This document shows, piece after piece, positions 8,354 to 45,231 of a DNA stretch of 64,000 nucleotides. Within the stretch, counting starts at the first letter, position 1, and each line of letters opens with the position of its first letter. Both the position numbers and the translations under genes were made by a program. Source of the DNA: Micromonospora sp. C31. GTDB taxonomy: Bacteria; Actinomycetota; Actinomycetes; Mycobacteriales; Micromonosporaceae. Location of the stretch: contig NZ_JAGPXN010000001.1 of NCBI RefSeq assembly GCF_018070575.1, forward strand, positions 1 through 64,000, given 5' to 3'. The notes below the pieces were generated by a model. That model saw only the letters and a program-made list of their open reading frames with translations. It searched no databases and was not told the DNA's origin.

Positions 8354-11203
8354 ATGGCAGGCCAGCACGAGGGGTACGCCCTCGGCGTCGACCTCGGCAC
8401 GTCCCACACCGTCGCCGTGCTGCGCCGGCCCGACGGGCACACCCGCCCGCTGCTCGTGGACGGGCACCCGATCATCCCCTCCGGCGTGTACGCCGACCCG
8501 GACGGGCTGCTGCACGCCGGCCGGGACGCCCAGCGGCTGGCCCGCACCGATCCGGGCCGGTACGAGCCCAACCCGAAGCGGCGCATCGACGAGCCCGCCG
8601 TCGTGTTGGGTGACCGCCGGTACCCGCCGGCCGAACTGCTGGCCGCGACGCTGCACGCGGTGGCCCGGGCTGCCGTCGAGGCGGTCGGGTTCCTGCCTCC
8701 GGCGGTGCTCACCTGCCCGGCGACCTGGGACGCGACCCGGCGTCAGGTGCTGGCCGACGCCCTGGCGGCGGCCGGCTGGCCGTCGGCGGCCGAGCACACG
8801 CTCGCCGGTCCGACGCCGCCGGGCACCCGGCTGCTGCGGGAGCCGGTGGCCGCGGCCCGCTACTACACCCAGGTGCTGCGTCGCCCGGTGCCGGTGGGCG
8901 GGACGATCGCGGTCTTCGACTTCGGTGCCGGGACGCTCGACGTGGCGGTGCTGCGCAACGAGGGCGCCGACCCGTGGGGCGACTCCGGGTTCACGGTCGT
9001 CACCGCGGGCGGCGCCGACGACCTCGGTGGCCTGGACGTGGACGCCGCCCTGCTGGGTCGCCTCGGTGAGCTGGTCGCCGAGGCGCACCCCGCCCGGTGG
9101 GAGCAGCTGACCCGCCCGGCGTCCGCGACGCAGTGGCGGGAGCGGCACGAGCTCTGGGAGAACGTCCGGGGCGCCAAGGAGATGTTGTCGCGGGTGCCGG
9201 CGGCGCCGGTGGCGGTGCCGGGGGTGGAGGCGGCGGTCACGCTCACCCGGGCCGACCTGGAGCGGGTGGCCGGGCCACTGCTGGGCCGGGCGGTGGCGGT
9301 GACCCTGGAGGTGATCGGCGCGGCCGGCCTGGACCCGCAGCAGCTCTCCGGCCTGTTCCTGGTCGGCGGCGCCACCCGGATGCCGATGGTGGCCCGGCTG
9401 CTGCACGCCGAGTTGGGCGTCGCCCCGACCGTGCTGGAGCAGCCGGAGCTGCCGGTGGCCGAGGGGGCGCTGACCGACCTGCCCCTGCCCCGACGCGCCC
9501 GGGCCGCCGACGCCTTCGCCGCGCCCGCCGGCGCATCGGCGCGACCGGCCGCACCCGCCCTGCCGGCGCCACCGGCCGGAGCACCACGACCCGATCCCGC
9601 CGGCCCGGCCCCCACGCCGACCGCCGTCGCCGGGCCGGAGGGCGTCACCCCGGCCCTGCCCGCCGGGCTGGCGCCGACCATGCTCGGCGGCCAAGGGAGC
9701 CCGGCACCCTACGCGGCACCGGGCGTAACCCCGGGCGGTCCCGTCGGGGCGTTCCCGGGCGTACCCGCCTCCGGGACGCCGGTGTCGCCGTCGCCCGGCG
9801 GTGGGAGTGCGCCGGCACTCCCCCGACGCCGGGCGCTCTGGGTCTCGCTCGCCGCCGTCCTCGCGCTCGCCGGCGTGGCGACGGCGGCGGTGCTGTACCT
9901 GACCCGGGACCGCTACCCGGCCCTGGAGTTCCGGACCGTCGACCAGCTCGCCCGGGTGCCCGCCGGCACGGAACGACCGGCGAACATGTTCACCGCGGTT
10001 CTCGGCGGCCGGGCGTACCTCGGGTATCCGCTCGGCGACGGGCGGCTGGAGGTGGTGGCGGTGGACGCCGGCACCGGCGCGGTGAAGTGGCGGAAGCAGA
10101 CGGCGGTGTCCGCCGACCGGTGGAAGCGGATCGTCGCCCTGCCCGGCGCGGTCGCGGTCTTCGCCGACGCCATCGGCGACGACACCCCCCGGGACCTCGT
10201 GCTGCTCGACGGCTCCTCGGGCGACCAGCGGTGGCGCCGGCCGATCCTGGGCGACGACGACGTCATCTTCGGCGACGGCGTCGCGGTGCAGGTGGACCGC
10301 ACCGGAAAGCGGCTGGTCGGGCTGCGCCTGCGCGACGGCGGGGAGATCTGGGCGCAGCCCAGCCCGCGCGACGGGTACGACAACACCCGCACCAGCGTCC
10401 ACCTCGTCACCACCGACAAGGCGCTGGGCGGCCCGGCCTTCCTCGACGGCTCCCCGCGTGACGCGTGGCGCGGCGACGTCAGCCGGATCGTGCAGGTGGG
10501 CGCGGACCGGTCCGTCCGGCTGATCGACATGGGCAGCGGCCGGGTGGTCCGCGCCCGCGCCGGGGTGGCCGACCACGACGACCTGGTGGTGGCGCACGAG
10601 GACCGGCTCTACGTGGCGCGCGACGACGCCGGCTTCCAGCTGCTCGCGTACGACCTGACGAGCGATGCCCAGCCGAAGGTGCTGTACACCGCGGAGGACG
10701 ACCGGCGCCGGCCGAAGTCGCTGGTGCCGTGCGGCGAGCGGCGGGCGTGCCTGCTGGAGGTCGCCGGCGGTGCCGACGACACCGCCGAGGTCGTGGCGGC
10801 GACCGAGGAGAAGTGGATCCGCTGGAAGGCGCCGAAGGCGACCGTGCTGGTGCCGCTCGGCGAGCACCTGCTCGCCCGGCGGACGTCTCCGAAGTCGGCC
10901 GGCACGCTGTTCGACCCCGACGGTCGCGCCGTGCTGTCCGAGCGCGGCGGGGTGGCGGTCCGGCTCGACGCGGGCAACCTGCTGCTCCTCGCCGACCCGC
11001 CCAGCTCGATCGAGGACGACCGCAGCGTCGCCGGCATGTCGGTGGGCTCGGGCGAGGTGGACGAGCTGGGCCAGTTGGAGGACGTCCGCAGCGACACCTG
11101 CTCGTGGAACACCAGCGTGATCGCCTGCGGCGCCGGCAGGCAGAGCGGGGACGCCGGGGCCCGGTCCCCGTACGGCTTCGTGCTCTATCGCTTCGCCGAG
11201 TAG
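8354..11203 (+). CDS. Hsp70-like ATPase fused through a TM segment to a beta-propeller domain
   Basis: A 949-aa protein; ATG at 8354 with GGAGGT 9 nt upstream. Residues about 8-375 resemble an Hsp70/actin-fold ATPase: phosphate-1 loop [12 protein letters not shown], phosphate-2 loop [15 protein letters not shown] and adenosine loop [11 protein letters not shown]. The DnaK substrate-binding domain is absent. Instead there is a Pro/Ala/Gly-rich linker (about 380-490), one hydrophobic segment (about 495-515) and a roughly 430-residue C-terminal part with repeated short beta-strand blocks resembling a PQQ/WD-type propeller. Predicted topology is ATPase inside and propeller outside, as in a membrane-spanning sensor or anchor. 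A subtilase gene follows 116 nt downstream on the same strand. Role unknown. Confidence 0.85.
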
Positions 11204-11319: not shown

Positions 11320-12543
11320 ATGACACTTCCCCGTACCCGGCGATGGCGGGCCCGCGCGGTGGGCGTACTCGCCGTCGCCACGGTCGTCGCCGCGCTGGGC
11401 ACCCCCGCGGCGGCAGCCCCGGCCACCGGCGAGATCCTGCACGCCGACGCCCCGAACGCCGTGACCGACGCATACGTGGTGGTGCTCAGGGACGACGCAC
11501 TCGGACGCGCCGGCGACCGGCGGGCCGCCGTCACGGACGCCGCCGACCGGCTGGCCGACCGCTACGGGGCCACCGTCGGCCGCGTCTACGGGCACGCGCT
11601 CACCGGATTCGTGGCGCACCTGCCGGAGCGGGCGGCCCGCCGGCTCGCCGCCGATCCGAGCGTGGCGTCCGTGGAACGGGACCGGGTGGTGACCCTCGTC
11701 GGGCCGGGCGTGCAGCCCAACCCGCCGTCGTGGGGCCTGGACCGCATCGACCAGCGCCGCCTGCCGCTCGACGGCCGGTACGCCTACCCGAACACCGCGC
11801 ACAACGTGCACGCGTACGTCGTCGACACCGGCATCCGCAGCACGCACGGCGACTTCGGGGTCCGGGCCGGCGGCGGCGTCGACCTGGTCGACGGCGGCCC
11901 GGCGGACGACTGCAACGGCCACGGCACCCACCTCGCCGGCACCGTCGGCGGCACCCTGCACGGGGTGGCGAAGGAGGTCCGGCTGCGACCGGTACGGGTG
12001 CTCAACTGCTCGGGCAGCGGCAGCATCTCCCAGGTGATCGCCGGGGTGGACTGGGTCACCGCGAACGCGGTGCGGCCCGCGGTGGCGCTCATGGCGCTCG
12101 GCGGCGGCGCCAGCACGACACTGGACGCCGCGGTGAACCGCTCGATCTCCTCCGGGGTGACCTACGTCGTCTCGGCGGGCAGCTCGAACGGCAGCGCGTG
12201 CAACTACTCGCCCGCGCGGGTGGCGGCGGCGCTCACCGTGGCCGGCACCACCAGCACCGACGCCCGGATGCCGAGCGGCAACCACGGCCCCTGCATCGAC
12301 CTGTTCGCTCCCGGCGCCAACATCAGGTCCACCTGGCACACGAGCGACACGGCGGTGACCACCATCAGCGGCACCTCCATGGCCGCCGCGCACGTCGCCG
12401 GGTGCGCCGCGCTCGCGCTCTCGGCCAACCCCACCTGGAGTCCCGCGCAGGTGGCGGCGTACCTGAACGGCAGGGCGACGACCAGCGTGGTCACGGGCGT
12501 GGTCAGCGGCACGCCGAACCGCCTGCTCTACTGCGGCCCCTGA
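11320..12543 (+). CDS. secreted S8 serine protease (subtilase), atypical oxyanion residue
   Basis: A 407-aa protein; ATG at 11320 behind AGGAGGAGG. The signal peptide covers about residues 1-32 (twin Arg, hydrophobic core, ending TPAAAAPA). An inhibitor-I9 propeptide follows (about 40-130, with AYVVVLRD and [19 protein letters not shown]). The mature subtilase domain has Asp in VVDTGI, His in [10 protein letters not shown] and Ser in [11 protein letters not shown]. At the site of the oxyanion-hole Asn, family members read AGN, but this protein reads [12 protein letters not shown], so Ser replaces Asn by hand alignment. That could lower activity. Four cysteines in the mature part suggest disulfides. 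It is probably extracellular. Confidence 0.9.
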
Positions 12544-12731: not shown

Positions 12732-13829
12732 ATGATCGACTATCTGGTCATCGGCGGAGGCATCGCGGGCGCCAGCGCCGGGCACCACCTCGCCGCGTAC
12801 GGGACCGTGGTGCTGCTGGAGATGGAGCAGGTTCCCGGCCAGCACTCCACCGGCCGCTCGGCCGCGGTGTTCTCCGAGTACTACGGCGGGCCGGCGGTGC
12901 GCGCGCTGACCCGGGCCAGCCGGGGCTTCCTCACCGCGCCGCCGCCGGGGTTCACCGAACACCCGCTGCTCACCCCGCGGGGCGTGCTGAGTCTCTGCCC
13001 GCCCGGCAGCGACGAGGCCTTCGAGGCGGCGCTGCGCGACGGGGCCGAGGTGGACCCGCCGGCCCGCGAGATCGACGTCGCCGAGCTGCCCCGACACTGC
13101 CCCGTCGTGCGGCCGCAGTGGTGCCGGCGGGCGATGGTGAAGCCGGCCGTGCAGGACCTCGACGTCGCCGCGCTGCACCAGGGCTACCTGCGCGGCATCC
13201 GGGCGGCCGGCGGTCGGGTCGGGTGCGACGCGCGGGTCCGCCGGCTGCGGCGGAGCGGCGACGGATGGCAGGTCACCACGGACACCGGCGACCTCACCGC
13301 CCGGGTCGTCGTCAACGCGGCGGGCGCCTGGGCCGACGAGGTCGCGACGGCGGCGGGCGTACGACCGATGGGGTTGACGCCGCTGCGGCGCACCGCCTTC
13401 CTGGTGGACGCGCCGACCGGCGTCCCGGCGGCGGACTGGCCGATGGTCAACGACGTCGACGGCAGCTTCTACTTCAAGCCGGAGTCGGGACGCCTGCTGG
13501 TCTCCCCGTGCGACACCACCCCCGTACCGCCCGGCGACGCCCGCCCCGACGACCTCGACGTGGCGATCGGCGCCGACCGGGTGCAGGCGGCGACCACGCT
13601 GGAGATCCGCCGCGTCCACCAGCCCTGGGCCGGGCTGCGGACCGCCGCCCCGGACGACGTGCCCGTGATCGGCCCGTCGACCGACGCGCCGGGCTTCCTG
13701 TGGATGGCCGGGCTGGGCGGCTACGGCGTACAGACCGCGCCCGCGGCGGGCGCCCTGCTCGCCGCGCTGGCGGTCGACGCCCCGCCACCGGTCGACCCCA
13801 CCGCCCTCTCCCCCGCCCGCTTCCCCTGA
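12732..13829 (+). CDS. FAD-dependent amino-acid oxidoreductase (DAO family)
   Basis: A 365-aa protein from ATG at 12732. The N-terminal Rossmann dinucleotide motif is YLVIGGGIAGASAGHHLA, with an acidic residue ending the second strand (VVLLEME). A DAO-family core follows, with VVVNAAGAWADEVA and a C-terminal GLGGYGVQTAPAAGALLAAL that closes the FAD site. It resembles D-arginine dehydrogenase and glycine/D-amino-acid oxidases, which oxidise an amino acid to the imino acid. The substrate cannot be inferred. It is convergent with the encapsulin operon and separated from it by a long inverted repeat, so a link to that pathway is only a possibility. Confidence 0.85.
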   Translation: MIDYLVIGGGIAGASAGHHLAAYGTVVLLEMEQVPGQHSTGRSAAVFSEYYGGPAVRALTRASRGFLTAPPPGFTEHPLLTPRGVLSLCPPGSDEAFEAALRDGAEVDPPAREIDVAELPRHCPVVRPQWCRRAMVKPAVQDLDVAALHQGYLRGIRAAGGRVGCDARVRRLRRSGDGWQVTTDTGDLTARVVVNAAGAWADEVATAAGVRPMGLTPLRRTAFLVDAPTGVPAADWPMVNDVDGSFYFKPESGRLLVSPCDTTPVPPGDARPDDLDVAIGADRVQAATTLEIRRVHQPWAGLRTAAPDDVPVIGPSTDAPGFLWMAGLGGYGVQTAPAAGALLAALAVDAPPPVDPTALSPARFP

Positions 13830-13914: not shown

Positions 13915-15084
13915 TCAGCCGGGGTGCTGGTCCACCAGTGAGCGGCGCGGCAGCATCGTCAACGCCGAGATGGCGGCCGACACCAACGCCGCCACCAGCA
14001 TCACCTGGAAGACCGCCGGGTAGCCGGCCACGCTGGCGACCAGGCCGGCCAGCGGTGCCCCGGCCACCAGGCCGATGTCCCAGAACGAGGTGAACGCGCC
14101 GAGCGCCGCCCCCTGGTAGGCCGGGTCCGTCCGGTTGATCACCAGCAGGGCCAGCGCCGGGAAGAGCAGCGAGAGCCCGGCGCCGATCACCAGCCCGCCG
14201 AGCACCGCGACCAGCAGGTTCGGCGCGAACGCGACGAGGAGCAGCCCCACCGCCTCCACCAGGGCCGAGCCGACGGCCACCCGGCCGGCGCCGAGCTTGT
14301 CGGGCAGCCCGCCCACGAAGAGCCGGACCCCGACGTAGGTGAAGCCGAACGCGTTGAACGCGGCGATGCCGTTCTCGACGCCCCGCTCGGCCATGTGCAG
14401 CGCCACGAACGCGGCCAGCGCGGCGTAGCCGAACCCGGCCAGGGAGAGCGCGACGCCGGGGGCCACCGCGCTGCGTGGCAGGATGCCGGCCCGGCCCGCC
14501 GCACTCGCCTGCCGCGGGCCGGGCCGGGCCGCGACGAGCACGGCCCCGGCGACCGCCGCCACGATCGCGAACAGCCACACCGCGGGATAGCCGGAGGTAC
14601 GCAGCAGCACCGCGCCGAGCAGGGCGCCCAGCGTGATGCCGAGCCACATGTGGATGCCGTACAGGCCGACGACCCGCCCCCGCCGGTCGGCCGGCGCGAG
14701 CGCCACCAGCCAGGCCGCGCCGGCGGTGTAGACGGCCGCCTCACCCACCCCGTGCAGGACCCGGACACCCACCAGCACGCCGACGTTGCCGGCCACCAGG
14801 TAGGCCGCCCCGGCGGCGGCGCACACCACCGCCCCGCCCAGCATCACCGTCCGGTACCCGTGCCGGTCGCCGATCCGGCCGGCGACGGGCCGGGCGATCA
14901 CGGCGGAGACCGCGATCGCGGCGATCACCACCCCCACCTCGACCCGGTTGCCGTCCAGCTCGTCGAGCACGTAGAACGGCAGCACGGCCAGGGACGCGCC
15001 CACGCCGAGCAGGCACAGGAAGATGGCGGCGAAGAGCGGCACGATGGGCCGGTAGAACGAGAGTTTCCCGCCGGTCGTGGTCAT
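13915..15084 (-). CDS. MFS transporter, last gene of the encapsulin operon
   Basis: A 389-aa membrane protein with about 12 hydrophobic segments. The MFS loop-2/3 signature appears as GRIGDRHGYRTVM (about residue 70) and a weaker repeat occurs in the C-terminal half (LPDKLGAGRVAVG). The size and lack of extra domains suit a drug:H+-type antiporter. The start ATG at 15084 is 12 nt after the encapsulin stop codon, so it is almost certainly co-transcribed with it. In this context it may export the pathway product or give self-resistance; that is inference. Confidence 0.88.
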   Translation of the reverse strand: MTTTGGKLSFYRPIVPLFAAIFLCLLGVGASLAVLPFYVLDELDGNRVEVGVVIAAIAVSAVIARPVAGRIGDRHGYRTVMLGGAVVCAAAGAAYLVAGNVGVLVGVRVLHGVGEAAVYTAGAAWLVALAPADRRGRVVGLYGIHMWLGITLGALLGAVLLRTSGYPAVWLFAIVAAVAGAVLVAARPGPRQASAAGRAGILPRSAVAPGVALSLAGFGYAALAAFVALHMAERGVENGIAAFNAFGFTYVGVRLFVGGLPDKLGAGRVAVGSALVEAVGLLLVAFAPNLLVAVLGGLVIGAGLSLLFPALALLVINRTDPAYQGAALGAFTSFWDIGLVAGAPLAGLVASVAGYPAVFQVMLVAALVSAAISALTMLPRRSLVDQHPG

Positions 15085-15096
15085 GCGGTGCTGCTC

Positions 15097-15954
15097 CTAG
15101 GCCGGTACGACGTGGAAGAAGTGGGTCGGCAGGTGCACGGCCAGGCCCTCGTGGATCTCGGCGCAGACGGCCGGGCCGTCGGTGGCGAAGGTACCCGGCG
15201 GCGGGGTGCCGACGCGGATCGCCGAGCGCCCGGCGTCGAGCAGGCGGGCCGCCATCGCGAAGTCGCCCACCACCGCCTCGCCCGGCGCCACCATCCGGGT
15301 ACGGCTGATCTGCACGCCGTTGCGGGTCAGGTCGGCCAGGAAGGCGCCCCGCCCGAGCAGGTGGGTGTAGTAGTCCCTCGGGTTGACGATCATCGCGTGC
15401 GGGGTGGCGCCGGTCTGCTCGATCTCGTCGCAGGCGGCGAGCAGACCGCTGAGCCAGTCGTGCCGGTACGGCAGCCGCCCGATCTCCGGGTGCCGCAGCA
15501 GGCCGCCCTCGCCGATGGTCAGCGCCTGGTTCTCGGCCGTGGCGAGGCGGACCAGCAGCCGGTAGTCGATGAAGACGGCCAGCGCCTCCGGGTCGTCGGC
15601 GAGCTCCTCGGGGATGCGTACCCAGGCGCGGATCGGGTGCACCCCGGCGGAGGCGGTGCCGAACCGGAACGCGGCCTCCCGGCGCAGGCCCGACTCGTGC
15701 ACCGCCGCGGCCTCGCCCGCGTCGGGCCGGCCCTCGCACCAGAACCGGACCGGGTCCATGCCGACCGACCGCTTGCGGAACAGGTTGCGGACGGTCACCC
15801 GGGGCCGTTCCTTGGTCGGCTGGAAGGCGTCCGTGATGGTGTAGTCGAAGCGCACCTCGGCGCCGGCGGGATCGTCGGCGTACGCGCGGGCGAACAGCTC
15901 ACCGGGCGACAGGGTCGCCGAGGCGGTCACGGGCGGCGCGGCGGTGGTGGTCAT
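15097..15954 (-). CDS. HK97-fold encapsulin shell protein (natural-product, family 3 type)
   Basis: A 285-aa protein with the pattern of HK97-type capsid proteins. Residues about 90-130 have a phage-capsid-like block: SGLRREAAFRFG, a beta stretch, then IPEELADDPEALAVFIDYRL. The spine helix ends in ATAENQALTIGEGG. Next comes a P-domain helix and strand with TPHAMIVNPRDYYTHLL, then APGEAVVGDFAMAARLLDAG, and the last strands CAEIHEGLAVHLP and FFHVV. No portal, terminase, protease or tail gene is nearby, so this is not a prophage. Encapsulins found inside peptide natural-product clusters, next to sulfotransferase genes, are called family 3 (recalled, not searched). The start ATG overlaps the sulfotransferase stop (ATGA), with GGGGAGG upstream, so the two are translationally coupled. 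Confidence 0.8.
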   Translation of the reverse strand: MTTTAAPPVTASATLSPGELFARAYADDPAGAEVRFDYTITDAFQPTKERPRVTVRNLFRKRSVGMDPVRFWCEGRPDAGEAAAVHESGLRREAAFRFGTASAGVHPIRAWVRIPEELADDPEALAVFIDYRLLVRLATAENQALTIGEGGLLRHPEIGRLPYRHDWLSGLLAACDEIEQTGATPHAMIVNPRDYYTHLLGRGAFLADLTRNGVQISRTRMVAPGEAVVGDFAMAARLLDAGRSAIRVGTPPPGTFATDGPAVCAEIHEGLAVHLPTHFFHVVPA

Positions 15955-16688
15955 GAGTCCTCCCCGATGCAGATGGCGTGCCGGATCAGCCGCTGGTAGA
16001 AGGGCTGGTGGTGGTCGTGGTACGACCGCAGGGTGTCGTTGTTCGCGACGGTCACCTCGAAGGACTTCTCGACCGGTGCGAAGCCCGAGGTGCGTTCGAC
16101 GTCGAGGTGCCACTTGCGGGTGCGCCGCCACTCGGCGCGCTCGCCGGGCGCCCAGTTGAGCGCCTCCGGCCGGAACGGCAGCCCCACGGCGGCGCACCAG
16201 GCGGCCACCGTCTCCCCGGGGTGCCGCAGCAGGTCCTCGGCCCGGATCACCACGGGCGGCCGGCGCGCGGTCCGGCTGACCAGGTCGAACAGCTCCCACT
16301 GGTGCTCGTAGCCGATCTCCGGGCAGGTCACCGTCGGCTTGATCGCGTAGTGCGAGCTGATCGTGCGGGCCGGGTCCCGGACGATGAAGGTGTGCGCGAC
16401 GTCCGCGATCGCCCCGGGATCGTCGAACAGGTGCCGGTAGCGGTACTCCAGGGTGTCCTTGACGAAGACGGTCCGGTTCCGGCCCAGCGCCGTCAGGTGG
16501 GCGAGGACCTCGGGCGCGTCGGTCACGGTGACGGTGCCGCCGTCGGCGTCGGGCAGCTCGACGTGCCCCTCGTCGACGAGGGTGACCAGGGGTTCGTGCA
16601 CGACGGTGACGTCACCGCGGGCGATCATCATGCGCAGGAACGCGGTGGAGAGCGCCCGGGGATGCGCCCACATGGCGATCACCGGCAT
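15951..16688 (-). CDS. PAPS-dependent sulfotransferase-like protein
   Basis: A 245-aa protein with the sulfotransferase fold. The N-terminal 5'-phosphosulfate loop is WAHPRALSTAFLRMM, and the 3'-phosphate-binding region is FIVRDPARTISSHYA with its conserved Arg and Ser. The C-terminal part is rich in Trp and Arg (WAPGERAEWRRTRKWH). Such enzymes transfer sulfate from PAPS to a hydroxyl or amine, here probably of a small molecule. It overlaps the encapsulin start by 4 bases and follows the aldo/keto reductase by 58 nt. Sulfotransferases recur beside family 3 encapsulins, which supports the operon assignment. Confidence 0.8.
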   Translation of the reverse strand: MPVIAMWAHPRALSTAFLRMMIARGDVTVVHEPLVTLVDEGHVELPDADGGTVTVTDAPEVLAHLTALGRNRTVFVKDTLEYRYRHLFDDPGAIADVAHTFIVRDPARTISSHYAIKPTVTCPEIGYEHQWELFDLVSRTARRPPVVIRAEDLLRHPGETVAAWCAAVGLPFRPEALNWAPGERAEWRRTRKWHLDVERTSGFAPVEKSFEVTVANNDTLRSYHDHHQPFYQRLIRHAICIGEDS

Positions 16689-16746
16689 GCCGGCCCCCCG
16701 TACCGCGTCTCCCGCCGCCTGAGCGCGGCCCCGCGGCGGGCGGCGC

Positions 16747-17730
16747 TCACTGCGACCACGCCGTGGGCTTGCGGTCCCACCGGTGGCCGCGCAGCGTGTC
16801 CAGCAGCCCGGCGTCCAGCGGTACGCCGTCGCTGACGGCCAGGTTGGCGCGCACGTGCTCGACGCGGCGCATGCCGGGGATCACCGTGCTGACCGCCGGG
16901 TGGTGCAGGATGAAGCGCAGCGCCAGTTCCGGCATGGACATCCCCGCCGGCACGTCGGCGGCCAGCCGCTCGGCGCGCTCCACGCTGGGCAGCAGGTTCT
17001 CCGGCCCGAAGTACGTGCTGCGCCAGTCCTCCTCCGGCCAGGTGCTGTCGGCGGTCAACGTGCCGGTCAGCGTCCCCTCGTCGAACGGGACCCGGGCGAT
17101 GATCGCGATGTCGTCACGCTGGGCGCGCGGGAACAGCTCGTCCTCCGGCGCCTGGTCGAAGACGTTGTAGATGACCTGCACGACGTCGATCAGGCCGGTG
17201 TCGAGGGCGGCGTGGCAGTTCGTCGGCTCCCAGCGGTTGACGCTGATCCCCACCCCGTCGACCACGCCCTCCCGCTTGAGGTCCGCGACGGCCTCCTGCC
17301 AGCGGCCGTCGGCGGCCCACCGGTCCTCCCAGACGTGGAACTGGAGCAGGTCGATCCGGTCCACGCCGAGGTTCTCGAGGCTGCGGTGGGTGAACTCGCG
17401 GATGTGCTCGGCCGGGAAGACGTCGTCCAGGGTGTCCTGCGGGCCGGGCGGCCACTCCCGGTTCTTCGGCGGGATCTTGGTGGCCAGGTGGAGCCGGCGG
17501 TCCGGGTGCCGGCGCACCAGCCCGCCGAGGAGCTGCTCACTGACGCCCCGCCCGTAGACCCAGGCGGTGTCGAAGAAGTTGCAGCCCCGTTCCACCGCCT
17601 CGTCCAGGCAGGCCGGCGCGGTGTCGTAGTCCCAGCCGGTGAAGCCGCCGGGCCCCCCGCCGATGCCCCACATCCCGTACCCGACCTCGCTGACCTGCCA
17701 GCCGAGCCGACCCATCCTGCGGTATCGCAT
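16747..17730 (-). CDS. aldo/keto reductase
   Basis: A 327-aa NADPH-dependent oxidoreductase with a TIM-barrel fold. The catalytic tetrad is visible: Asp and Tyr in FFDTAWVYGRG, Lys in LATKIPP, His in DLLQFHVW. The C-terminal cofactor region contains VSTVIPGMRRVEHV. In this operon the natural substrate would be the aldehyde released by the upstream reductase-terminated NRPS-like enzyme, giving the alcohol; this is inferred from context. Start ATG at 17730, 44 nt after the NRPS-like gene stop. Confidence 0.9.
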   Translation of the reverse strand: MRYRRMGRLGWQVSEVGYGMWGIGGGPGGFTGWDYDTAPACLDEAVERGCNFFDTAWVYGRGVSEQLLGGLVRRHPDRRLHLATKIPPKNREWPPGPQDTLDDVFPAEHIREFTHRSLENLGVDRIDLLQFHVWEDRWAADGRWQEAVADLKREGVVDGVGISVNRWEPTNCHAALDTGLIDVVQVIYNVFDQAPEDELFPRAQRDDIAIIARVPFDEGTLTGTLTADSTWPEEDWRSTYFGPENLLPSVERAERLAADVPAGMSMPELALRFILHHPAVSTVIPGMRRVEHVRANLAVSDGVPLDAGLLDTLRGHRWDRKPTAWSQ

Positions 17731-17774
17731 TCCACTCCCTCATCCGTGCCGGTCACCGCGTCGCGCGCGGCCGT

Positions 17775-20700
17775 TCACCCTGGTCCCGCCGGCAGCAGCA
17801 GCCGGTCGGCCGCCCGCCGCACGTGCTCGCCCAGCCAGGCGCGGTAGGCGCCGACGGACGGCCCGAGCCGGTGGTCGGTGAAGCCCCGGCGCCGTTCCAG
17901 CTCGGCGCAGCCGTCGCGCCGGAACAGCCGGGGGTTGTCGGTGAGCAGCGTCGCGAAGACCGCGCGCAGCCGCTCCTCGTCGGCGCCCGCGTCGGGCGGG
18001 AAGAGGGCCAGCAGCACGGCGGCGTCGCGGTCGCCCTCGCCCGCCGCCTCGCGCAGCCCCGCCAGGAACCGCCCGCAGCTCACCCGGGGCAGGGCGTCCG
18101 CGCCGGCCAGCGGCAGGTCGGTGAAGTCGACGCTCACCGGGTGCAGGACGTGCAGCGTGCCGCCCCACTGGCGCGGGTCGACCACCGTGGCGACGATCCG
18201 CCGGGCGGCCCAGTCCACCGGCGTCCAGTCGGAGCGCACCGGCGCGTCGGGCCGCATCCGTAGCCGGTGGCAGGCCGCCAGCAGCAGATGGGTCAGGGCC
18301 CGGGGGTTGGGATGCCCGTCGTCGGCCGCGGGCATCACCTCGCCGAGGCGCAGCACCGTGACGGTCGCGCCCCGCCGCCGGGCGGCGTCGAGGTACCGCT
18401 CCGCCACCCACTTCGACCGGCTGTAGCCACTGGTCGGCGGGACGGCGAGGGCCGGGTCGTACGTCTCGGGCAGCGGCTCCGCGTGGCGGGCGGCCTCGCT
18501 GTCGAGGACGCCGAGGGTGGAGACGTGGTGCAGTGGCTTCGGCCGGCCGGTCAAGCACAGCCGGAGCAGCTCGGCGGAGCCGAGGACGTTCGCGGCGCGG
18601 TGGGCCCGGTAGTCGAACAGGAAGTTGACCAGCGCCCCGGCGTGCAGCACGAGGTCGCAGTCGTGGGCCAGCCGGTCCCATGCCTCGGATGTCAGGCCGA
18701 GCGCCGGGCGGCCGAGGTCGGCCGCGTACCCGTGCAGGCGCAGGCCGTGCCCGGGCCGCCACAGGCCCCGCTCCGCCAGCGCGCGGACGACGCGGGCGGT
18801 GGCCTCGGCGTCGTCGGCCGCCCGGGCCAGGCACAGCACCCGGACGTCGGTGGTGGCGAGCAGCTCGTGCACCAGTCGCGCGCCGACGAAGCCGGTGGCG
18901 CCGGTGACCAGGACGGTACGCGGCGCCCGGCGCCGACCGACGGGGCGTACGGGCAGGTCGGCCGGGACCTTCGCGTCCCGCTCCACCAGCTCGTCCTCGG
19001 TCTCGGCGGGGTCGGCCGCGCGCAGCCGCACCTCGAGCGCCCGGGCGAGCCGGCTGGCGCTGCGGTGGGTGAACAGGTCCTGCACGCCGACGCGGAGGCT
19101 CTGGTCCGTGCCGAGGGCGTTGACCACGTCGAGGGCCTGCAACGAGTCGCCCCCGGCGTCGAGGAAGTCGGTGTCGGGGTCGAGGTCGGGCCGGCCGAGG
19201 ACCGTCCGGAACACCCCCAGCACCCGCTCGGGCAGCGTCCGCGCCTCGGCGGGTGCGGCCGACGGGCGCGTCCGGTCGGCGAACGTACGGTCCAGCCAGG
19301 CCTCCAGCGCCCGCCGGTCGACCTTGCCGTTGCCGGTCAACGGCAGCGCGTCGCGCACGACGACGTGCCGGGGCACGTGGGTGCGGGGCAGCAGCCGCCG
19401 CAGGTGCGCCCGCACCAGCGGCTCGGTCACCTCGGGGTCGGCGGCGAGGAAGAGGGCCAGCGATCTGCCCCGGTGCTCGCGGGCCAGCAGGACCTTCGCC
19501 TGCCGTACGCCGGGCAGCCGGGTGGCGGCGGTCTCGATCTCGCCGGCCTCGATCCGCACGCCGTTGACCTTGAGCTGGTGGTCACGCCGGCCGGCGAAGT
19601 GCAGCCGGCCGTCGGCGGCGACGCGGCCGAGGTCGCCGGTGCGGTAGAGCCGTGGGCCCGGGATGCCGGGCAGCGGGTTGGGCACGAACACCTCGGCGGT
19701 GCGGGCGGGGTCGGCGAGGTACCCCTCGCCGAGGCACACGCCGCCGATGACGATCTCGCCGGTCTCGCCGGGCGGCAGGGGGCGCAGTTCGGCGTCCACC
19801 ACTGCGGCGTGGCAGTTGTCGATGGGCCGGCCGATGGGGATGACGTCGCCGTCGGAGTGGGCGACGGTGTGGAAGATCATGCCGATCGACGCCTCGGTGG
19901 GGCCGTAGCCGTTGGTGACCGCGACCCCCGGCACCATCTCGACCAGCCGGTGCACCGCCCACGGGTCGATCTCCTCGCCGCCGACGATCACGTCGCGCAG
20001 CGACGCGACGGCGCGGCGGGCGGCCGGGTCCCGGTCCAGGACCGAGACGAGCGCGCCGAGCACGCTCGGCACGAAGTCGGTCATCGTGACGGTCTCGTCG
20101 GCGATGGTCCGGACGGTCCGCTCGACGTCGAGGAACCCGCCCTCGACCGGCACGACCGTGCGGCCGCCGGTGGTCAGCGGCCAGAACATCTGCCACACCG
20201 ACGAGTCGAAGGTGTGCCGGCTGTTCTGGAGCACCACCTCGGCACCCGTCGCGGCGAAGTGGCGGGTCATGAAGCGCAGCCGGTTGGCGATCCCGTCGTG
20301 CCGGTTCAGCGCGCACTTCGGCGTGCCGGTGGTGCCGGAGGTGAAGATGCCGTAGATCAGGTCGGCCGGGCCGATCGGCACGCCGGGCCGGCGACGGGTC
20401 GGGACGATCTCGTCGAGGTCGACGGGCAGGCAGGGGACATCGCCGGTGTCGGGACGCGGGCCGGTGCCGCGTACCACCGCGAGCCGGGGCCGGACCACCC
20501 GCAGCGAGGCGTGCAGCCGGTCCGCCGGCCAGCCGGGATCGACGGGTACGAAGGCCGCGCCGAGCTTCATCAACGCCAGGTCGACGACGGGCAGTTCGAG
20601 TCCGTCGGCGAGCAGGACGGGCACCACGTCGCCCCGCCGGACGCCTCGCCCGGCGAGCATGGCGGCGACGCCGTTGGCCAGCTCGTCGAGTTCCCGGTAG

Positions 20701-20900
20701 GTCAGCGAGCGGCCCCGGAACGACACCGCCCGGCGGTGCGGGTGCCGGTCGACGCGGTCCTCGACCATGCGGGGCACCGCCTGGAAGGGCCCGTCGCCGC
20801 GCGACCCGGCGGCAGCCGCCGCACGGGTGGCGGTGCACCGGCAGGTGGGCCCGTCGATGACGGGAACCGCTGCCGTGGTTCCGGTGTCGCCCGCCCTCAT
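17775..20900 (-). CDS. NRPS-like enzyme: adenylation - carrier protein - thioester reductase
   Basis: A 1041-aa protein, starting at ATG 20900 because AGGAGG lies 4 nt upstream; a GTG 39 nt earlier is less likely. After a roughly 35-residue Ala/Gly/Thr-rich N-terminus comes the adenylation domain (about 35-540): FTSGTTGTPK (A3), FDSSVWQMFW (A4), NGYGPTEASIG (A5), YRTGDLG (A7), LKVNGVRIEAGE (A8), TGNGKVDRRAL (A10). The carrier domain has the phosphopantetheine Ser in FLDAGGDSLQALD (about 585). The C-terminal extended-SDR reductase domain has TGATGFVGARLV, HVSTLGVLD and YSRSKWVAE. There is no condensation domain. The A4 Asp suggests an alpha-amino acid substrate. Expected product is an amino aldehyde, or an alcohol if reduced twice. 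Confidence 0.92.
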   Translation of the reverse strand: MRAGDTGTTAAVPVIDGPTCRCTATRAAAAAGSRGDGPFQAVPRMVEDRVDRHPHRRAVSFRGRSLTYRELDELANGVAAMLAGRGVRRGDVVPVLLADGLELPVVDLALMKLGAAFVPVDPGWPADRLHASLRVVRPRLAVVRGTGPRPDTGDVPCLPVDLDEIVPTRRRPGVPIGPADLIYGIFTSGTTGTPKCALNRHDGIANRLRFMTRHFAATGAEVVLQNSRHTFDSSVWQMFWPLTTGGRTVVPVEGGFLDVERTVRTIADETVTMTDFVPSVLGALVSVLDRDPAARRAVASLRDVIVGGEEIDPWAVHRLVEMVPGVAVTNGYGPTEASIGMIFHTVAHSDGDVIPIGRPIDNCHAAVVDAELRPLPPGETGEIVIGGVCLGEGYLADPARTAEVFVPNPLPGIPGPRLYRTGDLGRVAADGRLHFAGRRDHQLKVNGVRIEAGEIETAATRLPGVRQAKVLLAREHRGRSLALFLAADPEVTEPLVRAHLRRLLPRTHVPRHVVVRDALPLTGNGKVDRRALEAWLDRTFADRTRPSAAPAEARTLPERVLGVFRTVLGRPDLDPDTDFLDAGGDSLQALDVVNALGTDQSLRVGVQDLFTHRSASRLARALEVRLRAADPAETEDELVERDAKVPADLPVRPVGRRRAPRTVLVTGATGFVGARLVHELLATTDVRVLCLARAADDAEATARVVRALAERGLWRPGHGLRLHGYAADLGRPALGLTSEAWDRLAHDCDLVLHAGALVNFLFDYRAHRAANVLGSAELLRLCLTGRPKPLHHVSTLGVLDSEAARHAEPLPETYDPALAVPPTSGYSRSKWVAERYLDAARRRGATVTVLRLGEVMPAADDGHPNPRALTHLLLAACHRLRMRPDAPVRSDWTPVDWAARRIVATVVDPRQWGGTLHVLHPVSVDFTDLPLAGADALPRVSCGRFLAGLREAAGEGDRDAAVLLALFPPDAGADEERLRAVFATLLTDNPRLFRRDGCAELERRRGFTDHRLGPSVGAYRAWLGEHVRRAADRLLLPAGPG

Positions 20901-21050
20901 CACGCCTCCTGTCCCCGAGCCCGCCCGGCCTGTCGTCACGCCATGGACGGGACGAATCCGACCCGACGCACAGCAAGGGAAGTTATCGTCACCGGTCGAT
21001 GCCCTGGCTGCTGGTCAAGGACATTAGAGGGCCGATCGAGGGGAGGGAAT

Positions 21051-21356: not shown

Positions 21357-22925
21357 TCAGCTCACCCTGCGCTCGTGGCCCTGCCAGAACCGCTCCCGCA
21401 GCTCGCGGCGCAGGATCTTCCCACTGGGGTTGCGCGGCACCCGATCGATGAACTCGTAGTGCAACGGCTGCTTGAAGCCGGCCAACTGCCCGCGCAGGTG
21501 CAACGCCAGGTCGCGCTCGGTGAGCTGCTGACCCTCCACCGGCACCACGAACGCGTACACCGCCTCGCCCCAGCGCTCGTCCGGCACCCCGACGACCGCC
21601 GACTCGGCGACCAGCGGATGACGGCCGATCACGTTCTCGACCTCCGCCGGGTAGACGTTCTCCCCCGCCACGATGATCATGTCCTTGATCCGGTCGCGGA
21701 TGAACAGGTAGCCGTCCTCGTCCAGCACGCCCGCGTCGCCGGTCACGACCCACCCGTCGACCAGCGTCCTCGCGGTGGCCTCCGGCAGGTTCCAGTACTC
21801 CACCATCACGCCCGGGGAACGCAGCCAGACCTCGCCCACCTCGCCCGTTGGCAGCGGGTTGCCCTTGTCGTCGGCGACCTTGACCTCGAAGCCCGGGTAC
21901 GGCAACCCCGCCGACCGCATCCTGCCGCTGTCCGGCGTGTGGTCGGCCGGAGGCAGGCAGACGGCGGAGTTGCCGGTCTCGGTCAGGCCGTAGATCTGGG
22001 CGAACTCGCAGCCGAAGCCCTCGACGCAGCGGGCCAGCAGCGCGGCCGAGATGGGCGCGCTGCCATAGACGATCTTCCGCAGGGAGGCGAAGTCCGCCTT
22101 GGTGACGCCGGGCTCCGCGAGTAGCAGCCGCAGCATCGAGGGCACCGCGAGGATGGTGGTGACGCGCAGCGTCCTGATCAGCTCCACCGCGCCGGCGGTG
22201 GTGAACTCGCGCATCACCACGTTCGTGGCGCCCGAGGCGAAACCCATCGCCGCCCACGACAGGCCGCCGATGTGGAAGCCGCCGTTGCAGAGCAGGCTGA
22301 CGTCGCCCGCACGCAGGTCGAGCCAGTCCAGGGCCGCCGAGGCGAGCCCGTCACGGACACAGAAGAAGCTGCGGTGCGCGAGGACGACGCCCTTCGGCAG
22401 GCCCGTCGTCCCGCTGGTGTACATCTGGGCCAGCGGCGTGTCGGGGGTGACCTTGGTCAGCACGTTCGCGTCGGGCTGGGCCGACACCCAGGCCGCGAAG
22501 CCGGCCCGGGCCACGCCGCCGGAGTCCAGCGCGACCACCTGCTTGAGCATCGGCAGCTCCGGCGCCAGCTTGTCGGCCACCGCAGCCGAGTCGGCGTCGA
22601 CGAACAGCAGGGCGGCACCCGAGTCGCGCAGGATGTGCTCGACCTCGCCGGCGGCCAACCGCCAGTTGATCGGCACCAGCACCACGCCGGCCTTCGCCGC
22701 CCCGAAGAATAGGTCGTAGAAGTGCTCGGACTCCCTGCCCAGCCAGGCGATGCGGTCACCTGGGCGCAACCCCGCCGCCTGGAGGCCGCGCGCCACCTGG
22801 TTGCTGACGCGGTGCAGGGTGACGTAATCGACGCGCCGACCCTCGCAGACGATCGCGACGGCGTCCGGCTGCTGGGCCGCGTGCCTGCGCGCCACGTCGA
22901 CGAGCGTGCGCAACTGAACGGTCAC
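21357..22925 (-). CDS. acyl-CoA synthetase (AMP-forming, FadD-like)
   Basis: A 522-aa ANL-superfamily ligase. The start is GTG at 22925 with AGGAGG 5 nt upstream. Motifs are MYTSGTTGLPKGVVL (P-loop), QIYGLTETGN, GWVVTGDAGVLDEDGYLFI, RIKDMIIVAGENVYPAEVE and a C-terminal catalytic Lys in RNPSGKILRREL. It should form acyl-AMP and then acyl-CoA from a carboxylic acid. The full-length layout fits the medium/long-chain or aromatic acid CoA ligase group; the substrate is unknown. It is on the same strand as the encapsulin operon but separated by 456 nt, so it is probably transcribed separately. Confidence 0.88.
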   Translation of the reverse strand: MTVQLRTLVDVARRHAAQQPDAVAIVCEGRRVDYVTLHRVSNQVARGLQAAGLRPGDRIAWLGRESEHFYDLFFGAAKAGVVLVPINWRLAAGEVEHILRDSGAALLFVDADSAAVADKLAPELPMLKQVVALDSGGVARAGFAAWVSAQPDANVLTKVTPDTPLAQMYTSGTTGLPKGVVLAHRSFFCVRDGLASAALDWLDLRAGDVSLLCNGGFHIGGLSWAAMGFASGATNVVMREFTTAGAVELIRTLRVTTILAVPSMLRLLLAEPGVTKADFASLRKIVYGSAPISAALLARCVEGFGCEFAQIYGLTETGNSAVCLPPADHTPDSGRMRSAGLPYPGFEVKVADDKGNPLPTGEVGEVWLRSPGVMVEYWNLPEATARTLVDGWVVTGDAGVLDEDGYLFIRDRIKDMIIVAGENVYPAEVENVIGRHPLVAESAVVGVPDERWGEAVYAFVVPVEGQQLTERDLALHLRGQLAGFKQPLHYEFIDRVPRNPSGKILRRELRERFWQGHERRVS

Positions 22926-23213
22926 CGGGTCCTCCTCAGTGGGCGTACGGGCGGGGGCGACGCACGCCACGTCGGCCGCGAGACGCACGCCGGACGGATC
23001 GACCAGGGCCAATCAGCAGCACCTCAGCCCTCGGCGATGTCGTCATCGCCGCTCGCGCTTGGTGCACGAGCGCGAACTGAACGTAATCAGCGCGCGTCCA
23101 TCGCCCGGTAACAGGGGAAGAACCGCCCCCGCGGGCCCGGGCGAGCATGTTCCAGCAGCACGCCCGGCGAGCGGGCGGGCGCACAGGCGGGGCCAGCCGG
23201 AGCACACGCGCGC
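22926..23213. other. intergenic region, no gene seen
   Basis: About 290 nt between the start of the acyl-CoA ligase gene and the terminator of the trypsin gene. It must contain the ligase promoter. I see no supported gene or clear operator; short open frames here lack ribosome sites and recognisable content. Confidence 0.5.
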
Positions 23214-32549: not shown

Positions 32550-34013
32550 TCATGGCGCCGACCGCCCGACACCGCTGCCATTCACGTTAGCGGAGCCCAC
32601 GGCCCGCCAGATTGCGGGGTGGCGATCCCATCCGCCACTGGAGTGCTCCAGTTGCGCAGCGGTGGCGATCAACCTCGCGTCGTCGCCGTACCGGCCGGTC
32701 AGCAGGACCCCCACCGGCAGCCCCTCGGCGGTGACGCCCACCGGCAGCGACACGGACGGATCGCCCGTGACGTTGAAGACGGCGCAGTACGGCGAGAACC
32801 GGCGTTGCCGGTCGAAGTCCTCGGCCGGGTCGCCGCCTGCGGCGAACCAGCCCAGCGGCGCCTGCGGCGCGGCGAGGGTGGGGCAGAGCAGCAGGTCGCA
32901 GCCGGCGGTGCGGCGCACGCCGAGGCGTACCTGCGCCTGGAGTTCGCCGAGCGTGGCGGTGAGGGTGCCGGCGGAGATCTCCGCGCCCCGGGCGCGCAGG
33001 TGGCGGGTCAGCGGCAGCAGTGCGCTCTCCTGCCCGGGCGGCACGGGCGCGAGCGCGAGCACGTACCAGACGATCTCGAACAGTGGCCACACGGCGGGCC
33101 CGAGGGGCGCGGGGACGTCGACCACCTCGTGGCCGGCGGCGGTGAGCAGCGCCGCGGCCCGTTCCACGGCGGCGAGGCAGTCGGGGTGCACCGGCTCGTC
33201 GGCGAGCATCGGGGCGGTGAACCGCCCGACCCGCAGCCGCCCCGGGTCGGCCGCCCGGGCCGCGCCGAGCCAGCCGCCGGCGGGCGCGGCGGGCGCCAGG
33301 TAGGGCTCGCCGGGCACCGGCCGGGCCAGCACGTCGAGCAGCGCCGCCACGTCGGCGACCGTACGCCCGATCGGCCCGTTGGTCGGCAGGCCGAAGGCGC
33401 CGGAGCCGACCGGCCCGCCGGAGACCAGGCCCCGGCTCGGCTTGTAGCCGACCAGGCCGCACAGCGACGCGGGGATGCGCAGCGAGCCGCCGCCGTCGGA
33501 GCCCTGGGCGACCGGCACCAGCCCGGCGGCGACGGCCGCCGCCGCCCCTCCGCTGGAGCCACCGGCGGTGTACGCCAGGTCCCACGGATTGCGGGCCGGC
33601 GGCGCGACCAGCCCCTCCGAGTAGAGCGAACAGCCCAGCTCGGAGGTGGTGGTCTTACCAAGGCTCACCAGCCCGGCCGTCGCCATGAACCGGACCACGT
33701 CGGCGTCCACCGGCGGCACGAAGTCGGCGAACGCCGCCGAACCGAAGGTGGTGCGCACCCCGGCGGTGAGGGTGAGGTCCTTGATCGCGGTCGGCACGCC
33801 GTGCAACGGGCCGCGCTCGTCGGCGGGGACGGCATCGGCGGCGCGGGCCGCCGCGCGGGCCCGATCGCCGGTGACCGTGACGAACGCGCCGACGGTGTCG
33901 CCGAGCGCGTCGATCCGGGTCAGGTGGTGCTCGACCAGCTCCAGGCTGGACAGTTCGCCGCCGGCGACGGCGGCGGCCTGCTCCAGCGCGGTCAGGTCGT
34001 GCGGCTCGGCCAT
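32550..34013 (-). CDS. amidase-signature enzyme
   Basis: A 487-aa protein; ATG at 34013 ([10 protein letters not shown]). It has the amidase-signature Ser-cisSer-Lys triad: Lys in PTAIKDLT, cis-Ser in [14 protein letters not shown] and the nucleophile Ser in [13 protein letters not shown]. These enzymes hydrolyse amides, but the substrate is not predictable. It is on the same strand as the downstream small membrane operon, 49 nt from its start. It is not the typical kynurenine formamidase fold, so it does not obviously fill the gap in the tryptophan pathway encoded at 35-46 kb. Confidence 0.88.
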
Positions 34014-34224
34014 CCCCTCATCCTGCCCGCCCGTCCCCCGCTCCGCCGCACGACACGACCGGCCGGTGCGTGCGCCGCGCGCCATATCCCCCTGACATGA
34101 CCACTTAGGGATGACCGCCCACCGGCGCCCGGGACGGAGGATGGACATCGATCGATGGCGATCACTGTCCACCGGTGGCCCCGCAGTCACGCCACCGACC
34201 CCCACCCCCGCAGGGAGCGTCGCC

Positions 34225-35163
34225 GTGCAACCTGTACCTGCTCTGCACCCCGTCCCCGGCCGTCGCTGGTCGGCGCGCGCCACCCGGCCGCTGCTGGCCC
34301 TCGTCCTGGTCGGCGCGAGCCTGACCGCCACTCCCGCCGCACCGGCCGGTGCCCAGGACGTGTCTCGGGCCGCGCCGCTCGCCGCCAACCCGTACGAGCG
34401 GGGCCCCGCTCCCACCGTGGCCAGCATCGAGGCCACCCGCGGTCCGTTCGCCACCGCGCAGACCACCGTCTCCGCCAGCAGCGTCAGCGGCTTCGGCGGC
34501 GGAACGATCTACTACCCGACCAGCACCGCCGAGGGCACCTTCGGCGCGGTCGCCATCTCACCCGGCTTCACCGCTCGCCAGACCTCGGTCGCGTGGCTCG
34601 GCCCCCGCCTGGCCTCGCAGGGCTTCGTCGTCATCACCATCGACACCCGTTCGGTGTGGGACCAGCCGGTCAGCCGGGGCACCCAACTGCTGGCCGCCCT
34701 GGACTACCTGACCAACACCAGCACCGTACGCACCCGCATCGACCGCGACCGGCTCGCGGTGATGGGGCACTCGATGGGCGGCGGGGGCAGCCTGTCGGCG
34801 GCCAGCACCAGGCCCGCGTTGCAGGCGGCGATCCCGCTGACCGGCTGGCACACCCAGAAGAGCTGGTCGTCGGTGCGCGTACCGACCCTGGTCATCGGGG
34901 CCGAGAACGACACCGTCGCCCCCGTCTCGTCGCACTCTGAGCCGTTCTACACCAGCATGCCGACCACCCTCGACAAGGCGTACCTGGAGCTGAACGCGGC
35001 CAGCCACTCCGCGCCCACCTCGTCGAACGTCACGGTGGCGAAGTACAGCATCTCCTGGCTCAAGCGGTTCGTCGACGACGACACCCGCTACGAGCAGTTC
35101 CTCTGCCCGGCCCCCCGGGGCTCAACGATCGAGGAGTACCGGGACACCTGCCCGCACTCCTGA
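34225..35163 (+). CDS. secreted polyester hydrolase (bacterial cutinase / PETase-like)
   Basis: A 312-aa protein; GTG at 34225 with GGGAG about 8 nt upstream. The signal peptide (about 1-42) ends near [10 protein letters not shown]. The mature part follows Thermobifida-type cutinases and Ideonella PETase closely: [60 protein letters not shown]. Catalytic residues are Ser in GHSMGGGG, Asp in ENDTVAPV and His in [12 protein letters not shown]-terminal Cys pair (FLCPAP and DTCPHS) fits the conserved disulfide. The residue after the catalytic His is Ser, as in Ideonella PETase; most cutinases have Phe there. It should act on cutin-like or aliphatic/aromatic polyesters outside the cell. Confidence 0.92.
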
Positions 35164-35172
35164 ACCGCACGC

Positions 35173-35214
35173 TCCGGAGCCGTCGCGCGCACTGGGGGCC
35201 GCGACGGCTCCGGA
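35173..35214. terminator. bidirectional hairpin terminator
   Basis: Perfect 15-bp arms TCCGGAGCCGTCGCG (35173-35187) and CGCGACGGCTCCGGA (35200-35214), 10 nt after the polyester hydrolase stop and 88 nt from the end of the tryptophan operon on the other strand. Confidence 0.8.
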
Positions 35215-35301
35215 TCCACCCCCGCGAGCCGCACCCGGAGCGCCGCCGGCCGGCGGGTCCCGGCTGAGCCGCCGCAGCCCTGCCGCGCGCCGCAGCGGGC
35301 C

Positions 35302-40156: not shown

Positions 40157-40199
40157 GACGAGCCCTCCCCACGCACCACCACAAGGCCCGCCAACCCAC

Positions 40200-40994: not shown

Positions 40995-41061
40995 GCCGGC
41001 TCCTCGCTCCACTCGCCGCCGCCACGACACTCCGCGACACCGATGTGCTCGTCACGTCCGC

Positions 41062-45211: not shown

Positions 45212-45231
45212 GGGGTTGTCTCGCTCTCGGG

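Follow-up and report, generated by a model that had tools for sequence, protein, structure and literature searches.

An operon on the minus strand of Micromonospora sp. C31 may convert a single amino acid into an O-sulfated amino alcohol, with an encapsulin-type protein of the HK97 capsid fold forming a shell that houses or serves the sulfation step. The operon occupies positions 13915 to 20900 of the window, the whole stretch of 64,000 nucleotides (nt) that was analysed (contig NZ_JAGPXN010000001.1, positions 1 to 64,000), and the probability of this reading is put at roughly 0.45. It builds on what was observed: the families of the gene products, the residues kept in them, their predicted folds, a gene set that recurs, and a shell that goes with a sulfotransferase. 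Sulfation, and not aldehyde chemistry, appears to be common to all sampled shell loci, a point that is new and open to test. The set of six genes, with the sulfotransferase as invariant partner enzyme, makes enclosure of that enzyme by the shell directly testable. Should the shell prove to be a compartment for sulfation, a protein derived from viruses would have been put to a new use, the occurrence of shells in natural-product clusters would be explained, and there would be small metabolites, alkylating or sulfated, still to be explored.

Five open reading frames (ORFs) lie in a row on the minus strand, with intergenic gaps of 44, 58, -4 and 12 nt. According to Pfam they encode, in transcription order, an enzyme with adenylation, peptidyl carrier protein and reductase domains (A-PCP-R), an aldo/keto reductase (AKR), a sulfotransferase (ST), an HK97-fold shell protein and a major facilitator superfamily (MFS) exporter, and no condensation domain is found by Pfam in any of the operon proteins. 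An earlier note on this DNA had described the same genes, gaps and product types as a biosynthetic operon with the reductase ahead of the sulfotransferase, and the ORFs and Pfam agree with it. A sixth conserved gene, which that note lacked, encodes a convergent FAD-dependent oxidoreductase. The features are as follows.

17775..20900, minus strand: APR, carboxylate reductase of the A-PCP-R type, resembling a nonribosomal peptide synthetase (Pfam PF00501, PF00550, PF07993)
16747..17730, minus strand: AKR, aldo/keto reductase (PF00248, 170 bits)
15951..16688, minus strand: ST, sulfotransferase of the 3'-phosphoadenosine 5'-phosphosulfate (PAPS) type (PF19798, Sulfotransfer_5, 64.6 bits against a cut-off of 23.2)
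15097..15954, minus strand: SHELL, family 3 encapsulin shell protein of 285 residues (NF041188; Pfam Phage_capsid)
13915..15084, minus strand: MFS exporter (PF07690, MFS_1, 150 bits)
12732..13829, plus strand: DAO, FAD-dependent amino-acid oxidoreductase, D-arginine-dehydrogenase-like and convergent with the operon (relative DauA, 321 bits)
21357..22988, minus strand: acyl-CoA-ligase-like AMP-binding enzyme upstream of APR (PF00501)

The APR frame extends to an upstream GTG at 20939, and the ATG at 20900 is preceded by AGGAGG. The stop of the ST gene and the start of the shell gene overlap by 4 nt, read in the window as ATGA.

By family and predicted fold the 285-residue protein is clearly a family 3 encapsulin, as the earlier note had proposed. 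It scores 364 bits against the NCBIfam model NF041188 (family 3 encapsulin nanocompartment shell protein), where the cut-off is 180, and the generic phage capsid model gives 26.1 bits, just under its own cut-off of 27.5. Its AlphaFold model, made with 86 sequences, has a predicted local distance difference test score (pLDDT) of 91.5 and a predicted template modelling score of 0.87, with pLDDT values below 50 in the first 12 residues only. A Foldseek search of the PDB with this model returns the HK97 prohead (prohead I) first (E 1e-18; TM-score 0.73 by target and 0.68 by query), with the Pyrococcus particle (E 4e-11) and Myxococcus EncA (E 5e-10) ranked lower, and the protein is predicted to form a hollow shell. 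The match to the 385-residue HK97 gp5 starts at gp5 residue 131 and shell residue 52, and no counterpart of the N-terminal scaffolding (delta) region of gp5 is found in the 285-residue protein. Conserved residues are scattered along the sequence, and the nearest other shell protein, also from Micromonospora, is 98% identical. Pfam and PHROGs give a distant capsid match, and the best phage capsids (best 10 of 59 records in an annotated phage collection) are about 26% identical. Among eight window proteins scanned against PHROGs, the shell protein alone matches a structural family, and its gene lies within a biosynthetic cluster rather than a phage.

Shell loci were compared across named genomes and genomes of the genus, family and class, with genes called by our own codon-usage caller, so that starts are approximate. 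The 85 context loci tabulated include 75 with a distinct shell over threshold, all from Actinobacteria and three betaproteobacterial genera; the count leaves out L088 and L089 (below the cut-off), L105 to L108 (no shell gene over threshold), L012, L091, L092 and L094 (duplicate shell sequences), the window itself and the genus match G032, which lies at a contig edge. In Nonomuraea sp. NEAU-A123 one shell cluster is present twice, on separate scaffolds (L011/L012). The operon type of the window, class A, comprises 32 distinct loci in two phyla, and the conservation of the gene set around shell homologues on which the earlier note had counted is borne out by them. AKR is present in all 32, and APR in all except L014 (31), whose contig starts after it. 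MFS genes, which fall into three types, are found in 30 of the 32, all but L008 (at a contig end) and L053. Two different class A operons occur in Nonomuraea sediminis (L002/L015). Among the named genomes scanned, 19/19 loci keep the order APR-AKR-ST-SHELL as far as their contigs hold it; these loci include Catellatospora, Nonomuraea, Actinoallomurus, Allonocardiopsis, Streptomyces meridianus and the betaproteobacterial genera Trinickia, Paracidovorax and Ramlibacter.

Class B has 27 loci, and its type locus L065 encodes a DegT aminotransferase, an MFS protein, an ST, a short-chain dehydrogenase/reductase (SDR), a methyltransferase, the shell, a DadA-like FAD enzyme and a racemase-family protein. 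The 16 class C/D loci have either LysW-type carrier genes with transketolase or ATP-grasp ligases, along with an ST and, in 14 of the 16, an SDR; class C loci have genes for LysW-, LysX-, LysY- and LysZ-like proteins, a transketolase and an ST. Of the 160 Micromonospora genomes searched, 40 have a shell over the cut-off, the window's own included; 23/160 have a class B locus (L065-L087) and 10/160 the window's type, with G032 unassigned. No genome is over the cut-off among 398 sampled from the phylum of Trinickia besides the centre itself, and a plasmid search for more family 3 clusters gave distant capsids only, in 4 records.

In a maximum-likelihood tree of 71 shells (L008, L018, L087 and L100 omitted), rooted at the midpoint only and with a long-branch warning between B and C/D, classes A, B and C each fall on one side of a branch and class D does not. 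The three betaproteobacterial shells are placed among actinobacterial class A shells, suggesting that the operon was transferred between phyla. Two of the omitted loci show either decay or an assembly error: the shell gene of L100 is apparently split over two frames, and the methyltransferase of L087 matches in two pieces. Three class A loci (L002, L020, L115) share ligase genes (an AMP-ligase, mostly with an ATP-grasp) with class D loci L062, L063 and L101-L104, and an MFS gene of one type is also common to these loci except L062 and L063. The shared genes suggest interchangeable building blocks that are joined into small peptides.

The sulfotransferase is the partner that the shell keeps. 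An ST gene is present in 75/75 distinct shell loci, in 74 by gene call and in L087 by tblastn (86% identity), and no locus has a second one. Other pathway genes are lacking in six control loci whose HK97-like matches fall below the threshold. In the window genome of 6.45 Mb, the one genome counted in this way, PF19798 has one match (the operon ST) and PF13469 two; with sulfotransferases this rare, chance adjacency of ST and shell is negligible. ST adjoins the shell gene in 31/32 class A and 12/16 class C/D loci, and 4-nt overlaps occur in both orders, with ST upstream in Micromonospora class A and downstream in six class C/D loci. Shell pairwise distances correlate with those of ST at 0.90, APR at 0.88, AKR at 0.85 and DAO at 0.83 (300 pairs of related, not independent, sequences). 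Ten of the 75 loci also contain PAPS-supply genes: adenosine 5'-phosphosulfate (APS) kinase in L013, L016 and L110, paired genes for a CysD/CysN-type ATP sulfurylase in L059 to L061, L096, L098 and L112, and both in L014 (called by Pfam for L013, L059 and L014, by phmmer for the rest).

The kind of sulfotransferase differs between classes, PF19798 in the window and PF13469 in the ST annotated in classes B to D. Matches to the window ST by phmmer number 36 ORFs, 0/36 of which match any of three PF13469-type queries, and 42 ORFs match all three of those queries. With two ST families beside one shell family, and with classes A, B and C separating in the shell tree under the long-branch warning given above, one kind of ST has apparently been swapped for another while shell and sulfation stayed. 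With the class C ST as query, relatives that score above 200 bits occur in 7/394 class-level genomes, all of them shell-bearing, and elsewhere reach at most 168 bits (6 candidates per genome scored).

The window enzyme itself is assigned as a PAPS-dependent sulfotransferase by family and predicted fold. Its AlphaFold model (pLDDT 89.4) gives, with Foldseek against the PDB, PAPS sulfotransferases as all of the best 15 matches, at modest TM-scores of 0.44-0.54 by query; these matches include tyrosylprotein ST, the curacin ST, the olefin-synthase ST and 3-OST, and lower in the list are Teg12 and StaL, also guanylate kinases and Fap7. A sequence search of the PDB with ST gave antibody noise only among the 60 matches listed.

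Across these loci the shell appears to track sulfation more tightly than aldehyde formation, since ST is present in all 75 while the other enzymes vary and AKR relatives occur without a shell. All 75 would be most simply explained if the shell served sulfation or what that step yields.

The two enzymes that would act before sulfation, APR and AKR, keep their presumed catalytic residues in class A. In APR the carrier-domain Ser and the A10 Lys are kept in 28/28 covering sequences and the reductase Thr/Tyr/Lys in 29/29; in AKR the Asp/Tyr/Lys are kept in 29/29 and the His in 30/30. Anchoring on motifs gives the adenylation-domain code DSWDIGGIGK at positions that we presume to be the Stachelhaus positions, with K517 taken from the A10 motif. 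D235, S236, W239, D278, G301, I330 and G331 are kept in 28/28 covering sequences, and because the code hardly varies the substrate is probably common to the class A enzymes. Neither the code nor the PDB relatives of the adenylation domain allowed a substrate to be named; the acidic residue 278 might presumably hint at a basic or amide side chain, and is not relied on here.

An extra N-terminal region precedes the adenylation domain in 10 of 28 aligned class A relatives of APR (L003, L006, L008, L013, L050-L052, L054, L055, L095), with 126 to 298 residues before the adenylation-domain anchor in our gene calls. The window APR (20760-20900) and L056 have only the first residues of this region (MRAGDTG...) fused to the adenylation domain, as if its middle had been lost. 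The extension was considered as a targeting region and rejected, being longer than 120 residues in 10 of the 28 and absent in others; three extensions that were tested have no Pfam match beyond the adenylation domain except one weak one.

From these genes we infer every reaction of the operon, along with its substrate, product, assembly and cargo. APR would adenylate an amino acid, load it onto its own carrier domain and release it as an amino aldehyde by NAD(P)H-dependent reduction, and AKR would reduce the amino aldehyde to the alcohol. ST would then move sulfate from PAPS onto the alcohol, in or at the shell. The course from amino acid through aldehyde and alcohol to sulfate is that of the earlier note, and it stands as a putative route in which the presumed catalytic residues of APR and AKR are kept. 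2-Aminoalkyl sulfates, which have a good leaving group beside an amine, are prone to ring closure. The product may accordingly close to an aziridine or a larger nitrogen ring, and ring closure in class A is a prediction. The MFS protein would export the product, and DAO would act on an alpha-amino carboxylate, or on a sulfate mimic of one, before or after the other steps.

DAO has D-arginine dehydrogenase DauA (PDB 3nyc) as its best solved relative, at 321 bits and ungapped over 352 residues. It lies near the shell in 29/32 class A loci, in many of which it immediately precedes APR with both on one strand; of the other three, L008 and L018 are on short contigs and L053 has no DAO within 9 kb. 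The positions of R222, Y249, R305, G332 and Q336 of DauA, which we take to be its carboxylate and catalytic site, are invariant in 27/27 sequences. The positions of H48 and E87, which presumably bind the basic side chain in DauA, differ in being mostly Val or Leu, never His (23 covering sequences) and never Glu (26 covering sequences). With the first set invariant and the second mostly Val or Leu, the probable substrate that DAO oxidises is an alpha-amino carboxylate whose side chain is not basic, or else an analogue in which sulfate replaces the carboxylate. A DadA-like FAD enzyme is present in 27/27 class B loci, and neither a DAO- nor a DadA-like enzyme was found in the 16 class C/D loci.

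A bolder extension, which we regard as doubtful, is that family 3 encapsulins are sulfation nanoreactors: a domesticated virus capsid would enclose ST, a hydroxyl beside an amine would be sulfated and displaced inside, and the resulting aziridines or other strained nitrogen rings would be kept from cell DNA and protein. Within such a scheme the window operon would be the shortest form, making one alkylating warhead from one amino acid by means of A-PCP-R, AKR and ST.

Several points weigh against a shell dedicated to sulfation. The ST of class B lies two genes away from the shell and adjoins it in 0/27 loci. Three genomes with no family 3 shell match (G000 served as positive control) have AKR relatives of 65-69% identity, a finding that speaks against aldehyde confinement by the shell. 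In one of these, L147 (G757), an APR-like gene and an ST relative of the PF19798 type (221 bits) stand beside AKR, and in another, L146 (G151), an APR relative does; in both the adenylation-domain code is nearly the same as in class A and AKR is 69% identical. The gene content of L147 shows that an ST of the window's type can do without a shell, so that sulfation would not need one. No cargo signal was found: ST has no extra tail, and the conserved AKR C-terminus also occurs in the shell-less relatives. The azinomycin pathway requires an aminotransferase (PMC9570651), and none is recognised among the annotated neighbours of the class C locus L059. In PMC8346489 the text on the Mesorhizobium family 3 class names no sulfotransferase; the Mesorhizobium and Myxococcus classes lie outside the 75-locus sample.

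The AKR C-terminal motif HRWDRxPTxWS had been a candidate cargo-loading peptide and was rejected, as the same or nearly the same tail is found on the AKRs of the three shell-less genomes. The terminal motifs of ST, DAO and the class B and C enzymes include nothing specific among the alignments listed. L147 also carries argininosuccinate-synthase-like and diaminopimelate-epimerase-like genes (Pfam), and L146 has a similar synthase-like gene, labelled by eye.

In a second account, the sulfate is kept in the end product, so that a sulfated amino alcohol is made and exported and the shell only organises the enzymes. The class A operon has no dedicated ring-closing enzyme that was recognised, the exporter gene comes after the shell gene, and PMC8346489 expects sulfated hydroxyls from clusters bearing SDR and ST. 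Such an ester would nevertheless have to resist the ring closure to which 2-aminoalkyl sulfates are prone, and a plain sulfate ester would make the conserved FAD amine oxidoreductase beside the operon superfluous. There is precedent for the closure in PMC9570651 and PMC12559475, and we consider retention of the sulfate possible but on the doubtful side.

Confinement by the shell of a reactive amino aldehyde between APR and AKR was the function favoured by the earlier note and is proposed in print for family 3 (PMC8346489). The near-constant presence of APR and AKR in class A would fit it, as would a semialdehyde dehydrogenase gene in the class C locus L059. It fares poorly beyond class A: the seven annotated neighbours of the shell in the class B type locus include no aldehyde-forming enzyme, and class B makes up 27 of the loci. 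The AKR relatives, one of them with relatives of both APR and ST, do without a shell, and the gene next to the shell is that of ST, not of APR or AKR. With ST common to all 75 loci, aldehyde confinement seems unlikely to be what the shell is for.

It is quite improbable that the HK97-fold protein no longer forms shells and is now a scaffold, or that it even catalyses the displacement of sulfate itself. The annotated neighbours of L059 include no recognised aziridine-forming enzyme, which leaves that step open, and the literature searched gave no description of an assembled family 3 shell; against this, the predicted model shows a complete HK97 fold with high confidence, and the conserved residues do not cluster. 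That the shell gene is a prophage remnant sitting in the operon by chance, for which its distant capsid match might speak, is refuted by the recurrence of one gene set at 32 loci from two phyla, and also has against it the correlated distances of shell and ST, the score far above the encapsulin cut-off, the low identity to the best phage capsids and the lack of another structural phage match among the eight proteins scanned.

The shell as an aid to sulfation stays the preferred reading, and the neighbouring genes of the window may be noted beside it. The acyl-CoA-ligase-like gene at 21357..22988 is probably outside the operon core, since only L053, L056 and L058 among the nine other whole Micromonospora class A loci (L050-L058) have it there. 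On the other side, an Hsp70-like protein at 8354-11203, with a PQQ_2 match just under the cut-off, adjoins a secreted subtilase at 11359-12543; in close relatives, genes of similar length (by length, not sequence) to these two come after the FAD enzyme. The minus strand of 34000-46000 encodes kynureninase-, FAD monooxygenase-, aldolase- and acetaldehyde-dehydrogenase-like products (Pfam), with a GC skew of -0.25 near 40 kb, and looks like tryptophan/kynurenine breakdown.

The closest known system is that of the family 3 encapsulins (Andreas and Giessen 2021, PMC8346489), with which the window shares the NF041188 family and the predicted HK97 fold. Their clusters are biosynthetic, occur in Actinobacteria and Proteobacteria, and have a sulfotransferase and an oxidoreductase nearby, as in the window. 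The main text of that paper names SDRs, and in it neither aldo-keto reductases nor amino acid oxidases, PAPS, Micromonospora or Nonomuraea are mentioned; sulfotransferases are called 'commonly found', and here they are in every sampled locus. For the one family 3 cluster studied, that 2021 paper gives the shell's role as unknown, and a 2025 review still terms the function of the cargo unclear (PMC12360286). The literature searched, with most subscription papers outside the search, holds no described function or experimental study of a family 3 shell. To call the operon a new system, as the earlier note did, is too strong, the kind and the idea of aldehyde sequestration having been published in 2021 (PMC8346489); the operon variant and the invariance of sulfation seem new against that main text.

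The reductase also has known relatives. MxcG (myxochelin) and L-aminoadipate-semialdehyde dehydrogenase have the same domain order and reductase residues as the window APR, which scores 532 bits against the MxcG model (full-length cut-off 2300) and 313 bits against the aminoadipate model (cut-off 1030), and which, compared with these A-PCP-R reductases, has no condensation domain.

For the chemistry, the nearest parallel is the amino-group-carrier pathway of azinomycin and vazabitide (PMC9570651), which has an amine beside a sulfated hydroxyl, as proposed for the window, and in which a sulfated amino alcohol closes to an aziridine. A further source states that 'sulfotransferase enzymes generate aziridines' and names AziU3/U2 (PMC12559475). 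Class C loci have LysW-like, transketolase and ST genes in common with the azinomycin pathway. Genes for a LysW-type carrier and a transketolase, which class C loci have, were not found beside the class A operon, which differs from azinomycin in having A-PCP-R and AKR in place of LysW and transketolase.

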